Virus record (IMG/VR): IMGVR_UViG_3300030103_000679
Span: 1-32,842 of that record
Source of the DNA: a virus
Length of the DNA: 32,842 bases
Direction: 5' to 3' (one strand)
A model generated the notes under the pieces. It did not search any database. It saw only the letters and a list, made by a program, of their open reading frames with translations, and was not told where the DNA came from. The position numbers and the translations under genes were made by a program. Below, piece after piece: positions 1-32,842 of the stretch (position 1 is its first letter; every line of letters begins with the position of its first letter).

Positions 1-99
1 TACTTCTCAAGTATGTTAGCAAGCGGTGGAGACATCCTAAATATACCAAAAGTAGCAGAAGAAACTGCTGCGAGCAAAACAGCAGGAAGTGCTGTTACA
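1..99. repeat. Terminal overlap, left copy (circularity)
   Basis: Bases 2-99 are identical to 32745-32842. Base 1 differs (T here, G at 32744). The repeat lies inside the capsid gene and keeps its reading frame across the junction, so it is best read as the assembly overlap of a circular or circularly permuted genome and not as a biological terminal repeat. Confidence 0.9.
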
Positions 100-23916: not shown

Positions 23917-24153
23917 ATGGATATTGATAAACTACTTAAACAAATAGATCAAGAAACTGCTAATGCGGAAGTAGGACACGAAGCATTTAACAGGACTAAG
24001 AATATGCGAAGATTTAGTCAAGGCAGTATAGAAAATATTGTTCTTGCTGATCCAAATGGCGACGAAGAACACACACCCCCTGACGATTGGGACGCACATT
24101 CAACATTTGATGAGGAAAATTACAGCATAGAGTATGATGATGAAGATTATTGA
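23917..24153 (+). CDS. Acidic hypothetical protein, first gene of the modification unit
   Basis: A 78-residue protein, very acidic at its end (DEENYSIEYDDEDY). Residues 1-20 form a short helix and the middle is probably disordered with Pro and Gly. ATG 23917 has no ribosome site; ATG 24004, with AGGA eight bases ahead, is an alternative giving 49 residues. Its stop overlaps the ParB-like gene by 20 bases. Acid-rich phage proteins sometimes mimic DNA or bind DNA enzymes; here this is only a guess. Confidence 0.5.
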   Translation: MDIDKLLKQIDQETANAEVGHEAFNRTKNMRRFSQGSIENIVLADPNGDEEHTPPDDWDAHSTFDEENYSIEYDDEDY

Positions 24154-24733
24154 AAAAAACATTAGAGATCTTAAACAAGCAGATTACAACCCAAGACAAT
24201 TAACAGAAAAACAACATAAAGAATTAACAGACTCTTTAGAAAAGTTTGGTTTTGTTGATCCTGTGCTTGTGAATAAAAATAAAGCAAGAAAAAACATTAT
24301 TATTGGCGGACACCAAAGAGTGAAAGTTGCTACAATGTTAGGCATTGAAAAAGTACCCTGCGTAGAATTAGATCTTAACGAAGAACAAGAAAAAGAATTA
24401 AATGTCAGATTAAACAAGAACACAGGAGAGTGGGATTGGGATATGTTGGCAAACAATTTTGATACAGGCGAATTACTTGATTGGGGCTTTGTTGAACAAG
24501 AGTTAGGAGTAGACAGTGAAAGTTTGACTTTTGATGTTACAAATAATTACAATGAAACAATCGAATACCCTGAAGACGCAGAAGCAAGTCACGTACGTAT
24601 GATCCAATTATTCTTAAACGACGAAACTGAACCAGTGTTTAAGAAAATGGAATTAGAATTAAGAGAAAAGTTTGGCACAGACAACGTTACAGACACTGTG
24701 TTTAAAGCTTTGGAGTTTTTGATTAATGGCTAG
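24134..24733 (+). CDS. ParB/Srx-domain protein of the modification cluster
   Basis: A 199-residue protein with a ParB N-terminal (ParB/sulfiredoxin) domain: ADYNPRQLTEKQHKELTDSL at 16-35, then VDPVLVN and IIIGGHQRVKVATMLG at 55-70, the GGHQR being the nucleotide-binding signature. NVRLNKNTGEWDWDMLA (90-106) is the continuation seen in phage ParB-like proteins tied to DNA methylases. There is no methylase domain. In phage modification loci such proteins recur beside base-modifying enzymes and may recognise DNA, bind CTP or act as nucleases. Three successive ATGs (24134, 24137, 24140) are possible. It overlaps the dioxygenase gene by 8 bases. Confidence 0.78.
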   Translation: MMMKIIEKNIRDLKQADYNPRQLTEKQHKELTDSLEKFGFVDPVLVNKNKARKNIIIGGHQRVKVATMLGIEKVPCVELDLNEEQEKELNVRLNKNTGEWDWDMLANNFDTGELLDWGFVEQELGVDSESLTFDVTNNYNETIEYPEDAEASHVRMIQLFLNDETEPVFKKMELELREKFGTDNVTDTVFKALEFLING

Positions 24734-25607
24734 AGAAATTTATTTAGATCCTGTGTTAGATGATAAGTCAGCTGCTAAATTAGCTGGTGCATTGTTAGAC
24801 GACACAAGTTATAAGATTTTAGTAGATTATGACGCAGACGTATATGATAAAGAATCAGGCAAAGTATTAGCAAAATTTAGGAAAAATGTAATACCTGCTA
24901 ATATTGCTCAAACTGCTTATGAAAATTTAAAGGGTGCAGCGACAGCAACAAATAACAGGAACAAAGCATCAGGAACAGCTGGTAGTAAAAGATTAAAAAA
25001 AGATGGATCTGTTTCAAATACAAATGGTGCAGATCAAGTTAATAGCGGAATTATAGGATATTTTGATAGAAATGTAAGATTTCCTTATTGCAGACAAACC
25101 GCTTTTAATCAAAAAGAATTTGAGAAATTTAAAAAAGCGTATGGTATTATTAAGTTTGTAGACAATCAATATAGCGATCTTATGCCAGACGAATATCAAT
25201 TGCAACGAAAAGTAGCAGACGAAACTGCACAAGATTTTGTTATTAAAGATACTGCATTTACCACAGTCACAGTAAATAAAAATTGGCAAACAGCAGTGCA
25301 TACAGATAAAGGTGATTTTGAAAAGGGCTTTGGCAATCTTGTAGTGTTACGTGAAGGAAGATACGAAGGCGGTTATTTTGTTATTCCACAATGGGCAGTA
25401 GCATTTGATATGCAAAATTGCGATTTATTATTATGTGACGTTCATCAATGGCATGGAAACACGCCAATTACAAAGATTGACGAAAAAGCTACAAGAGTTT
25501 CTTTAGTAATGTATTATAGACAAAATATGACACACTGCGGAACAGCAACAGAAGAACAAGAAATAGCAAAACAACGTGAAATAAGATCAGGGGCAAGTAT
25601 ATATTGA
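24726..25607 (+). CDS. TET/JBP-type 2OG-Fe(II) DNA dioxygenase
   Basis: A 293-residue protein with the TET/JBP core. HTD at 192-194 gives the first two iron ligands (His192, Asp194) in TAVHTDKGDFEKGFGNLVVL; GGYFVIPQWAVAFDMQNCDL follows; DVHQWHGNTPI holds the third ligand (His240 or His243), and Arg257 in ATRVSLVMYY is the expected 2-oxoglutarate ligand. Enzymes of this family oxidise the 5-methyl of thymine or 5-methylcytosine in DNA to hydroxymethyl. The N-terminal PYCRQTAFN region (120-128) is also shared. No cytosine-5 methyltransferase or hydroxymethyl-dUMP synthase is visible, favouring thymine as substrate. Its TGA overlaps the amidotransferase ATG (TGATG). Confidence 0.8.
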   Translation: MAREIYLDPVLDDKSAAKLAGALLDDTSYKILVDYDADVYDKESGKVLAKFRKNVIPANIAQTAYENLKGAATATNNRNKASGTAGSKRLKKDGSVSNTNGADQVNSGIIGYFDRNVRFPYCRQTAFNQKEFEKFKKAYGIIKFVDNQYSDLMPDEYQLQRKVADETAQDFVIKDTAFTTVTVNKNWQTAVHTDKGDFEKGFGNLVVLREGRYEGGYFVIPQWAVAFDMQNCDLLLCDVHQWHGNTPITKIDEKATRVSLVMYYRQNMTHCGTATEEQEIAKQREIRSGASIY

Positions 25608-26221
25608 TGTGCGGAATTGTAGGATATAGTTCACAAGATCCAAAACCAAATCACTTTGCAATACTTCATAACTTAATTATTGAAAGTTCAGTACGTGGGC
25701 TACATAGTTATGGTTACAGCTTTGTTAAAGACGATAAACTTATAACAAGAAAATATCACGAATTAGACGACATTTCTTTTCCTGTGTCAGATAAAATCAT
25801 TTACCACAACAGGTATTCTACGTCAGGTGATTATAAAAATCATAAAAACAATCAGCCAATACATATAGACGATATGGCATTAGTGTTTAATGGTGTTATT
25901 GATATGAGAACAAAACACCAAATGGAAAAAGCACATAATATCACTATGGAAACTGATAATGATGGCGAAATACTAATTCAACGATGTGGAAACGATAAAG
26001 AATTAATAACAAGATTTGTAAATGACATTAAAGGAAGTTTTGCTGGTATTGTTTTAGATTCCGAGAATAAAATGTTTGTTATACGTAACAAGAAGCGACC
26101 TTGCTGGATATTTGAATATGAAAATGCAACTTTTATAGCTTCAACAAGAGATATTTTTAAAAGAGTAGACGATACTTTTGAGCCAACGCCTATTAAAGCT
26201 GGTGTGTTATATGAATTATAA
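25607..26221 (+). CDS. Stand-alone class II glutamine amidotransferase
   Basis: A 204-residue protein beginning MCGIVGY, so Cys2 becomes the N-terminal nucleophile after Met removal. ATG 25607 is chosen over an upstream TTG for that reason. Other GATase-II marks follow: VRGLHSYG (29-36), HNRYSTSG (67-74), FNGVIDM (94-100) and DGE (119-121). These domains hydrolyse glutamine and channel ammonia to a partner. No synthetase or isomerase domain is present, so the ammonia (or glutamine-derived nitrogen) acceptor must be another protein, most likely an enzyme of this cluster. It is coupled to TET/JBP (TGATG) and overlaps the GNAT gene by 11 bases. Confidence 0.82.
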   Translation: MCGIVGYSSQDPKPNHFAILHNLIIESSVRGLHSYGYSFVKDDKLITRKYHELDDISFPVSDKIIYHNRYSTSGDYKNHKNNQPIHIDDMALVFNGVIDMRTKHQMEKAHNITMETDNDGEILIQRCGNDKELITRFVNDIKGSFAGIVLDSENKMFVIRNKKRPCWIFEYENATFIASTRDIFKRVDDTFEPTPIKAGVLYEL

Positions 26222-26618
26222 ATTAGAAAGAGCTATGCGTAAAGACGCAGATCTTATTAAAGCTATACACAAACAAGACAAAGAACACATAGGATCGTTT
26301 AATTTATTTCAGGTGTGGGATAAGTATTTAACAGAAAACACGACTTATAAATTTTTAGTATGTGAAGAAAAAGGGTTTGTCAGGTATGGCTGGTCTAAAA
26401 AATATAGTTCTTGGGTAATATACGAGATCGGCGTATTAGATGAATTTAAAAAACAGGGCGTAGCGAAGTTTATTGTGGAAAACTTACCAAAACCTATGAC
26501 TTTAAAATGCAATCTTGATAATGAAGCTGGAAATAAATTTTATGAAAAGATTGGTATGACAAAAGTAGGTAAAGCACAAACAAAGAAGGGTATTCCACAA
26601 AATATTTGGCAATGGTAG
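26211..26618 (+). CDS. GNAT-family acyltransferase
   Basis: A 135-residue protein with a GNAT fold: strand VIYEIGVLDEFKKQGVAKFI (69-88) with the acyl-CoA loop KKQGVAK (80-86), and CNLDNEAGNKFYEKIGM (100-116) with the usual asparagine and the YEK..GM end. ATG 26211, overlapping the previous gene by 11 bases, is chosen; a later ATG at 26235 is possible. These enzymes move an acyl group, usually acetyl, to an amine. In phage DNA modification loci GNATs are thought to acylate an amino group on the altered base. It overlaps the next gene by 7 bases. Confidence 0.78.
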   Translation: MNYKLERAMRKDADLIKAIHKQDKEHIGSFNLFQVWDKYLTENTTYKFLVCEEKGFVRYGWSKKYSSWVIYEIGVLDEFKKQGVAKFIVENLPKPMTLKCNLDNEAGNKFYEKIGMTKVGKAQTKKGIPQNIWQW

Positions 26619-27487
26619 ATGAATTTATTGATTATCACGTTCAATCATCTAAAGCAAAAGACATTGATCCAGCCAATGATTGTTTGAGATATGTAAGTGA
26701 TAGATTTGAATTAAATATTGAACAACGTTATTGGTTAGCTTTTTTATATGCTTGTTGTTATTCAGGAACGACTGTGTATTATATTTACAATGAATTTCCT
26801 GACTTTGAAAACGTAGACGAAGGCAGATTACAACGCTGGTGGGACGCTAATAAACAAAAGACTGTGTTCCAAACAGACAGATTGAAGGTAAAATCTTTTA
26901 ATGAGTTTGTTAATATCTTCAAATCATACAAACAGCTGCTCAATGGCTTAACGCAAGAAGAATATTTTAATTCCCTGAAACAGCCGAATAGACAGATGAC
27001 TTATGACAATTGTTATCAGGATCTGATGAAAATACATTACTTTGGCAGGTTTACTATGTTTATTTACTTAGAAATGGTAAATGTTTTAACAGGGTTTGAT
27101 TTAGAGCCAACGTATTTAGACTTAAAGAATGCTGAAAGTTGTAGAAATGGTTTAGTGTATAGTTTAGAGCAATACGAATTAGATACACATGGAACAAAAA
27201 AGAAGTTAAATAAAAACCAACTTGGCTATTTACAATATCAATTTGAACTAATGAAAGAAGAAATAGAACAGCTTGATATACAGCATACAAACATTTGGAA
27301 CATTGAAACAACGCTGTGTGCTTACAAAAAGTATAAACGTGGCAAACGTTATGTTGGATATTATATAGATCGTCAGCGTAAAGAAATAGAAAAAATGCAA
27401 GATCTTGTTATAGATGGTGTCAATTGGCAAGTATTATGGGATTTTAGAAACGAAACGTATGAGAAAAAATGGTTAAACGAGTTGTAG
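26612..27487 (+). CDS. Amino acid:DNA transferase / aGPT-PPlase-like protein
   Basis: A 291-residue helical protein with the hallmarks I associate with the alpha-glutamyl/putrescinyl-thymine pyrophosphorylase and amino acid:DNA transferase clade: DPANDCLRYVSDRFELNIEQ (19-38), then RYWLAFLYACCYSG, YNEFPDFENVD (59-69), RWW (75-77), FQTDR (86-90), HYFGRFTMF (142-150) and AESCRNGL (174-181). Known or proposed members displace the phosphate group of activated 5-hydroxymethyluracil in DNA with an amino acid or amine. ATG 26612 is preferred to an upstream TTG. The kinase gene overlaps its end by 19 bases, fitting the two as consecutive steps. Family recalled, not searched. Confidence 0.65.
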   Translation: MVDEFIDYHVQSSKAKDIDPANDCLRYVSDRFELNIEQRYWLAFLYACCYSGTTVYYIYNEFPDFENVDEGRLQRWWDANKQKTVFQTDRLKVKSFNEFVNIFKSYKQLLNGLTQEEYFNSLKQPNRQMTYDNCYQDLMKIHYFGRFTMFIYLEMVNVLTGFDLEPTYLDLKNAESCRNGLVYSLEQYELDTHGTKKKLNKNQLGYLQYQFELMKEEIEQLDIQHTNIWNIETTLCAYKKYKRGKRYVGYYIDRQRKEIEKMQDLVIDGVNWQVLWDFRNETYEKKWLNEL

Positions 27488-28002
27488 CAATAGGCGGTGT
27501 TCCTTGTTCAGGAAAAACAACATTAGTAAGAGAAATACTAAACAATGTAGAAGATGAGCCTAAGTTCTTTAAATATGGGCTGTTAAGGGGCTATATCTCA
27601 GACAACGTAGCAATTTTAGGTATTTATAAGCCTGAAGATACTTTTGGCGGTACAGACAAGTTGTCTATGGCAGTTCAAAAAGATTATGAAAAGTTTTTAA
27701 AGATAACTGACTATAATGTTCTCTTTGAAGGCGACAGGCTGTTTACAGAAAAGAATTTATTACATATACACGAGAACTATGAGCAGAAGTTTATTGTTTT
27801 AGATCTTGATGAAGAAACGCTGGAACAACGACACGTAGACAGAAATGATACGCAGTCAGATCAGTTTAAGAAGTCAAGGCACACTAAAATACAAAATATA
27901 TTAAACAACACACGTTTACAACCTGATTTGGAAGTAATTCAAATAAGGGATAAACAGAAAGCAGGAATAATTGCTAAGAAAGTAATAAAGTTCCTGTTTT
28001 AA
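27469..28002 (+). CDS. P-loop kinase, likely 5-hydroxymethyl-pyrimidine DNA kinase
   Basis: A 177-residue kinase. Walker A is GVPCSGKTT (10-18), VLFEGDR (84-90) is the Walker B-like strand, and RHVDRNDTQ (121-129) looks like the arginine-bearing lid. GGTDKLSMAVQ (60-70) resembles the substrate-side segment of phage kinases linked to base hypermodification. Those enzymes phosphorylate the hydroxymethyl of 5hmU in DNA, making it a leaving group. Its position directly after the transferase-like gene fits that role. Other small-molecule or nucleotide kinases cannot be excluded from sequence alone. It ends 17 bases before the terminase-region gene. Confidence 0.7.
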   Translation: MVKRVVAIGGVPCSGKTTLVREILNNVEDEPKFFKYGLLRGYISDNVAILGIYKPEDTFGGTDKLSMAVQKDYEKFLKITDYNVLFEGDRLFTEKNLLHIHENYEQKFIVLDLDEETLEQRHVDRNDTQSDQFKKSRHTKIQNILNNTRLQPDLEVIQIRDKQKAGIIAKKVIKFLF

Positions 28003-32629: not shown

Positions 32630-32842
32630 ATGGCAGACGGAAATGTAACTCCAACAACAGCTGCAAATTTCATTCCTGAGATGTGGAGAGATGCAATTTT
32701 AGATTATGCAGAAAGACGCTTTGTCTTACGTAATCAAGTATCTGACTTCTCAAGTATGTTAGCAAGCGGTGGAGACATCCTAAATATACCAAAAGTAGCA
32801 GAAGAAACTGCTGCGAGCAAAACAGCAGGAAGTGCTGTTACA
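32630..32842 (+). CDS. Major capsid protein, 5' part (continues at base 100)
   Basis: The start of the capsid gene: ATG 32630 with AAGGGGGAA upstream, one of the best ribosome sites in the window. The 71 codons end at the window edge exactly on a codon boundary and continue at base 100 on the circle, for 290 residues in all. The N-arm NVTPTTAANFIPEMW is typical of marine phage capsid proteins of the HK97 type. It shares nine of twelve residues with the 39-aa product at 13943. Confidence 0.85.
   Translation, partial: MADGNVTPTTAANFIPEMWRDAILDYAERRFVLRNQVSDFSSMLASGGDILNIPKVAEETAASKTAGSAVT
32745..32842. repeat. Terminal overlap, right copy (circularity)
   Basis: Identical over 98 bases to 2-99. 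The preceding base is G (32744), compared with T at position 1. See the left copy for interpretation. Confidence 0.9.

Follow-up and report, generated by a model that had tools for sequence, protein, structure and literature searches.

A compact six-gene phage cassette proposed to hypermodify thymine within DNA

How could a small phage in whose scanned open reading frames (ORFs) we find no DNA polymerase come to carry a hypermodified base? The question is raised by a run of six genes in IMG/VR virus record IMGVR_UViG_3300030103_000679, which we analyzed over its whole length of 32,842 nucleotides (“the window”). The genes lie on the plus strand, each overlapping the next by 1-19 nucleotides, and encode a ParB N-terminal-domain protein, a TET/JBP dioxygenase, a glutamine amidotransferase (GATase), a GNAT acyltransferase, a DNA-base transferase of the ADDT family, and a P-loop kinase. 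A first-pass annotation had described this end-to-end arrangement, named these families, and remarked on the missing polymerase, and all three statements hold: the ORFs are where it placed them, and the five families other than the kinase each match Pfam above the curated cut-offs. Its suggested route, in which TET oxidation, phosphorylation, amine transfer, a GATase as nitrogen source and GNAT acylation follow one another, is likewise well supported by the Pfam matches, by a fold match to the PUGT enzyme of phage PaMx11, and by homology to PaMx11 gp48 and gp49.

We propose that the product of the cassette is a hypermodified thymine that would protect phage DNA from host nucleases, with 5-(acylaminomethyl)-2'-deoxyuridine as the most likely form; we give this reading as a whole a probability of roughly 0.6. 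In the proposed pathway, the TET enzyme would hydroxylate the methyl group of thymine in replicated DNA to give 5-hydroxymethyl-2'-deoxyuridine (5-hydroxymethyl-dU), and the kinase would phosphorylate the hydroxymethyl group to give 5-phosphomethyl-dU. The ADDT would then replace the phosphate by an amine, using ammonia released from glutamine by the adjacent glutaminase, and so reach 5-aminomethyl-dU in one step. Finally, the GNAT would cap this amine, probably with an acetyl group, while ParB probably anchors the enzymes on DNA or guides them there. One part of this scheme, the hypermodification of thymine through hydroxymethyl and phosphomethyl intermediates, we consider likely.

Transferase and kinase, and their counterparts in phage PaMx11

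The transferase gene (26612-27487, plus strand, ATG at 26612) encodes a 291-amino-acid ADDT of the aGPT-PPlase family, matching PF18724 at 8.5e-20 and 71.9 bits against a cut-off of 26.2. Its predicted model has a mean pLDDT (predicted local distance difference test) of 96, and its best match in the PDB is PaMx11 PUGT (gp46; 8z2m), with a Z score of 19.1 over 255 residues and a root-mean-square deviation of 3.3. Strong matches were limited to the PUGT structures 8z2m and 8z2n, and the next in rank were a queuosine-salvage enzyme (Z 10.3) and DNA glycosylases (Z 7-9). Residues E232 and C236 of an ETxLC motif are common to the window ADDT and PUGT. PUGT was reached only via the predicted ADDT fold; searching PDB sequences gave no match, whether the query was the TET or kinase protein or a small profile of ADDT or GATase. 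We propose that ADDT displaces the phosphate of 5-phosphomethyl-dU by an amine.

The last gene of the cassette (27469-28002, plus strand) encodes a 177-amino-acid protein with the Walker A motif GGVPCSGKT and a match to AAA_18 at 4e-6. Its match to Ploopntkinase3 (PF18751) is weak (7e-4, 19.6 bits against a cut-off of 27), and 25 of 33 homologues match this family at E <= 0.01. The predicted model (pLDDT 92) has a nucleotide-kinase-like P-loop fold and matches nucleotide and nucleoside kinases as well as O-phosphoseryl-tRNA kinase, an enzyme that adds phosphate to a hydroxyl of a group bound to nucleic acid. We propose that the protein is a 5-hydroxymethyl-dU DNA kinase. Neither the 26612 nor the 27469 product thus falls into an unrelated family, in agreement with their first annotation as transferase and kinase. 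Characterized members of the ADDT and kinase families work on 5-hydroxymethyl-dU (PMC6449724), as in phages M6, ViI and phiW-14, and we found ADDT homologues in ViI-like Ackermannviridae. The difference is that these phages use a 5-hydroxymethyl-dUTP pool and a phage polymerase (PMC6449724), whereas we propose oxidation in DNA.

The closest comparison is the 5-aminomethyl-dU cluster of PaMx11, in which gp46 (PUGT) is followed by gp47 (a flavin adenine dinucleotide (FAD) oxidoreductase), gp48 (an acetyltransferase) and gp49 (a kinase), with a thymidylate synthase-like gp51 two genes on. Both clusters are contiguous, and besides the shared ADDT fold they have homologous GNATs and kinases: hidden Markov models (HMMs) of the window GNAT family and the cassette kinase family match gp48 and gp49 with 48.9 and 20.7 bits, respectively. 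Because of these three correspondences, we read the cassette as a version of the PaMx11 thymidine route in which two enzymes appear to be replaced: a TET enzyme stands in for the hydroxymethylase that acts on deoxyuridine monophosphate (dUMP) in the nucleotide pool, and a glutaminase takes the place of the FAD protein. The cassette differs further in its added ParB gene and in the lack of a detected phage DNA polymerase in the window.

The idea that TET, kinase and ADDT together form a thymine route has already been published for Rhodococcus phage Tonitrus (PP978825), whose five-gene cluster was described as a putative thymidine hypermodification system (PMC11955845). The Tonitrus cluster also combines ParB, TET, aGPT-PPlase2 (ADDT) and kinase genes, and its ADDT aligns with PUGT at 1.2e-8. 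In contrast to the window cassette, no GATase or GNAT match was found in the Tonitrus cluster, and its last gene product looks like a Rossmann/FAD protein from its sequence. As far as the literature surveyed shows, the novelty appears to lie in the six-gene form with a glutaminase, in how abundant it is, and in its exchange with an FAD form; an earlier mention of a GATase in such clusters may exist.

Conservation of the gene set in uncultivated phages

Measured against a relative (L012), the dN/dS (nonsynonymous to synonymous substitution) ratios of all six genes lie between 0.045 and 0.14, indicating purifying selection and therefore functional genes. The two ends of the window (1-99 and 32744-32842) form a common 99-bp repeat with one mismatch, three relatives (L007, L008 and L013) continue through the end junction, and the major capsid gene spans the join. 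The window is thus probably a complete genome, circularly permuted in the assembly, and since it is apparently complete, the absence of a gene from it is informative.

We queried IMG/VR with cassette members and obtained 26 loci with TET and at least 80 each with ADDT and GATase. Linkage was then counted in 62 records that carry this kind of ADDT with enough flank, duplicate contigs having been removed. The kinase, GATase and TET genes are obligate partners of ADDT, present in 62, 61 and 60 of the 62 records, respectively, and they are joined by ParB in 54 and GNAT in 43. These counts are biased, as the queries were themselves cassette members, but the strict linkage deserves attention all the same, since the ADDT query demanded none of kinase, GATase or TET.

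The commonest order, ParB-TET-GATase-GNAT-ADDT-kinase, occurs in 26/62 records, and five more have it with two ParB genes. Other orders exist, among them ParB-kinase-GATase-ADDT-TET, where the kinase is unlike in sequence and some members have a GNAT that is also unlike. Two kinases and two GNATs of unlike sequence fill the same slots. Terminase genes beside some cassettes have no recognizable relation to the window terminase. A gene order that recurs on such backbones is not a chance arrangement, and it indicates that the cassette moves as a unit. The full set had been thought rare; instead, dozens of independent contigs carry it, and the cassette is both common in uncultivated phages and coherent. 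A search of 84,980 bacterial and archaeal genomes with ADDT patterns found no prophage copies.

Substrate base and first oxidation

The TET gene (24726-25607, plus strand) encodes a 293-amino-acid TET/JBP 2-oxoglutarate/Fe(II) dioxygenase that matches PF12851 at 4.3e-26, with 91.5 bits against a cut-off of 34.9, and shows an HTD motif followed by later H and R motifs. We propose that it converts thymine to 5-hydroxymethyluracil in DNA. Across 61 virus records, the complete window genome among them, no thymidylate-synthase-type dUMP hydroxymethylase (PF00303) was found. Kinetoplastid JBP enzymes offer a parallel in that they hydroxylate thymine in DNA; in base J, however, the hydroxyl is glucosylated, whereas here it would be phosphorylated and replaced.

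Three cassettes (L161, L162 and L171) have no TET and instead carry a radical S-adenosylmethionine (SAM) protein near kinase, GATase and ADDT; the one tested, from L161, is of the PA0069/Rv2578c type. Again, no dUMP hydroxymethylase was found in the TET-less cassettes and further records, several of which are fragmentary contigs. A query with the radical SAM protein returned 80 loci (L194-L273), of which none has TET, most have ParB, 35 have the kinase, 29 have ADDT, and some have a GNAT. Two unrelated enzymes fill one slot, and neither needs a methyltransferase; this points to the methyl group that thymine already carries as the target of both. The radical SAM protein may replace TET in sister modules, and possibly starts a related modification module by a second route that does not depend on oxygen. 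By analogy with phage M6, where a radical SAM enzyme acts late in the pathway, it could instead serve a later step.

A different reading of the TET enzyme is that it oxidizes 5-methylcytosine made by the host or the phage, and that the kinase and ADDT act on the resulting 5-hydroxymethylcytosine. Characterized phage TET systems do act on 5-methylcytosine (PMC12730594), ParB domains lie beside phage cytosine carboxymethyltransferases (PMC12783734), and Methylophilales phage Melnitz has a C5-methyltransferase, a TET and a related kinase close together. The window cassette shares with phage systems of TET, C5-methyltransferase and TET-associated glycosyltransferase (TAGT) a TET/JBP domain predicted to oxidize a pyrimidine methyl in DNA, but it gives no match to TAGT (PF20691), and the complete window genome has no C5-cytosine methyltransferase (PF00145). 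PF00145 occurs in 3/61 virus records, outside the cassette order, and among four other contigs with near-exact end repeats that are probably complete (G013, G037, G043 and G047) only G013 has a methyltransferase match. The known activity of the ADDT and kinase families on 5-hydroxymethyl-dU, and the published interpretation of the Tonitrus ParB-TET-ADDT-kinase cluster as a thymidine system, also speak against cytosine. Because a complete genome encodes no C5-methyltransferase, cytosine is disfavored on gene content, and we judge modification of this base to be improbable.

Several TET and radical SAM loci have other neighbors. A GTP cyclohydrolase I gene (PF01227; L161:9549-10100) adjoins the TET-less kinase-GATase-ADDT-radical SAM cluster. 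In four records without a C5-methyltransferase (L002:5986-7614, L026:798-2882, L027:8190-10280 and L028:8727-10811), TET lies near a TET-associated glycosyltransferase, for which PF20691 was shown in L002 and L026. This group includes the isolated Nonlabens phage P12024L, and its members are candidates for glycosylated, base-J-like hydroxymethyluracil in phage DNA. Pelagibacter phage HTVC112P (L003:6372-8594) has a ParB-TET-FkbM-type methyltransferase arrangement, possibly for O-methylation of a TET-made hydroxymethyl base. In Methylophilales phage Melnitz-3 (L004:4010-8090), a C5-methyltransferase, a TET, a 427-amino-acid protein with no Pfam match and a related kinase stand side by side, and a phosphorylated hydroxymethylcytosine route is conceivable.

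Amine donor, tailoring enzymes and ParB

The GATase gene (25607-26221, plus strand) encodes a stand-alone class II (N-terminal-nucleophile, Ntn) glutamine amidotransferase domain of 204 amino acids, matching PF13537 (GATase_7) at 2.2e-10, above the curated cut-off. Its start reads TTG-ATG-TGC, sharing a TGATG stop/start with TET, and ATG 25607 gives Met-Cys, with Cys2 as the nucleophile; N-terminal-nucleophile glutaminases need cysteine as their second residue. Eight homologues all keep C2, R69, N95-G96 and D119, which correspond to the catalytic residues of GlmS-type enzymes. No synthetase domain accompanies this glutaminase, and in nearly all records its gene adjoins ADDT or is separated from it by a single GNAT gene. 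No GATase-ADDT fusion was found among the stop-to-stop ORFs examined. We propose that the GATase is the ammonia donor for ADDT. Distant homologues occur as GATases of Pseudomonas Bruynoghevirus phages, but we set these aside as they lie in an amidoligase cluster, a different context.

The sole GATase-less record among the 62, L016, has a shorter ADDT whose sequence clearly resembles those of PUGT (1.5e-6) and PDB entry 25qc (1.1e-10). It is followed by a homologue of PaMx11 gp47 (5.9e-17 over 280 residues). The resulting ParB-TET-ADDT-FAD-kinase arrangement recurs in four further loci found from L016, with no GATase in any of the five; in these FAD-form loci, ADDT position 251 is Asp and the FAD protein is PaMx11 gp47-like. 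In the PaMx11 pathway, glycine transfer is reportedly followed by flavin-dependent cleavage to 5-aminomethyl-dU. With ammonia handed to the transferase by a glutaminase, the same base would be formed in a single step. The first-pass claim that the GATase supplies the nitrogen is well supported as part of the route; glutamine-derived ammonia as the nucleophile is plausible, and we give it an even chance. Direct channeling of ammonia by the glutaminase into the DNA-base transferase, so that thymine oxidized by TET and then phosphorylated becomes 5-aminomethyl-dU in a single step, is for us equally finely balanced.

The same thymine route could run with a larger amine: the group transferred by ADDT would be an intact amino acid or some other amine, with the GATase acting before or after this transfer, for example by making a free amine substrate or on the amide of the transferred amino acid, leaving an amino-acid-like thymine adduct for the GNAT to acylate. 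The best structural match of ADDT is indeed a glycinyltransferase. To our knowledge, all characterized ADDTs use amines larger than ammonia. ADDT position 251 (codon 27362-27364, plus strand, aligned with cassette ADDTs and PaMx11 PUGT) also bears on this choice. It is Tyr in 82/82 cassette ADDTs and Asp in five of seven comparison enzymes, namely PUGT and the enzymes of Tonitrus, L016 and two Ackermannviridae. Besides PUGT, the enzymes with Asp are FAD-linked or of the dUMP-hydroxymethylase type. We considered Tyr251 as a signature of ammonia use and rejected it, since radical-SAM-linked ADDTs with no detected GATase retain it; it is thus a clade marker and no proof of the nucleophile, and its retention there counts in favor of the larger amine. 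What argues for ammonia over an amino acid is that a GATase with no synthetase domain is present in 61/62 records and in nearly all sits beside ADDT or with one GNAT gene between, and that TET cassettes lacking the GATase have a PaMx11-type FAD protein in its place, as though either route could serve. We therefore regard transfer of an amino acid or another amine as unlikely.

For the last step, the GNAT gene (26211-26618, plus strand, ATG 26211 with an alternative TTG at 26178) encodes a 135-amino-acid N-acyltransferase matching PF13673 (Acetyltransf_10) at 8.6e-7, above the curated cut-off. The gene is optional, and in other records GNAT families of unlike sequence occupy this cluster, a pattern to be expected of a final tailoring step. 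Acetyltransferases are reportedly known in such pathways, and we propose that this one acylates the aminomethyl group. The end product need not be undescribed, as had been suggested, because 5-aminomethyluracil is a known phage base (PMC11550810). At the other end of the cassette, the ParB gene (24134-24733, plus strand) encodes a 199-amino-acid protein matching PF02195 (ParB_N) at 1.9e-9, above the curated cut-off. It also matches the N-terminus of the PADLOC type II methyltransferase model MTase_II at 6.7e-22, and given this match and the ParB domains that accompany phage carboxymethyltransferases (PMC12783734), the simplest reading is that ParB is a general DNA-docking partner of modification enzymes.

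Several points weigh against the proposed thymine pathway. Besides the Tyr251 transferases linked to radical SAM proteins, one record (L173, 8795-11651) has ParB-GATase-ADDT-TET, the sole case seen with no recognizable kinase nearby. A C5-methyltransferase of the host or another source could feed TET with 5-methylcytosine, the base on which phage TETs assayed so far reportedly act. Finally, some of the GATase, GNAT and ParB genes could be passengers whose products act on proteins or metabolites, leaving only TET, kinase and ADDT as a DNA-modification core. GNAT is missing from 19/62 records and ParB from 8/62, and phage GNATs can target host proteins (PMC7552054). Yet the overlapping gene order is conserved, GATase is present in 61/62 records, the GNAT is homologous to a protein inside the PaMx11 modification cluster, and unlike GNAT families have been recruited to the same cluster, all of which makes passenger status very unlikely.

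If the thymine pathway is correct, small phages without their own nucleotide pool and polymerase can hypermodify thymine with all chemistry on finished DNA, and a compact, mobile cassette would explain the reach of such modification into 30-kb genomes. It would also provide a prokaryotic thymine-acting TET and a route to an amine handle on DNA thymines, useful in DNA labelling. If channeling holds as well, a glutamine amidotransferase would act on DNA bases in situ, and the hypermodification of thymine would begin wholly on DNA already synthesized.

PADLOC matched no described anti-phage defense system in the cassette, giving only the MTase_II match of the ParB domain and a weak P-loop match. 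Just upstream, a small acidic ORF of 78 amino acids (23917-24153) overlaps the start of ParB; it is not detected in more distant cassettes and is kept in the close relatives L006-L012. Apart from the cassette, the window encodes a phage Dam-type N6-adenine methyltransferase (PF05869; 19218-19718), with a homologue in some relatives (L009-L011 and L016).

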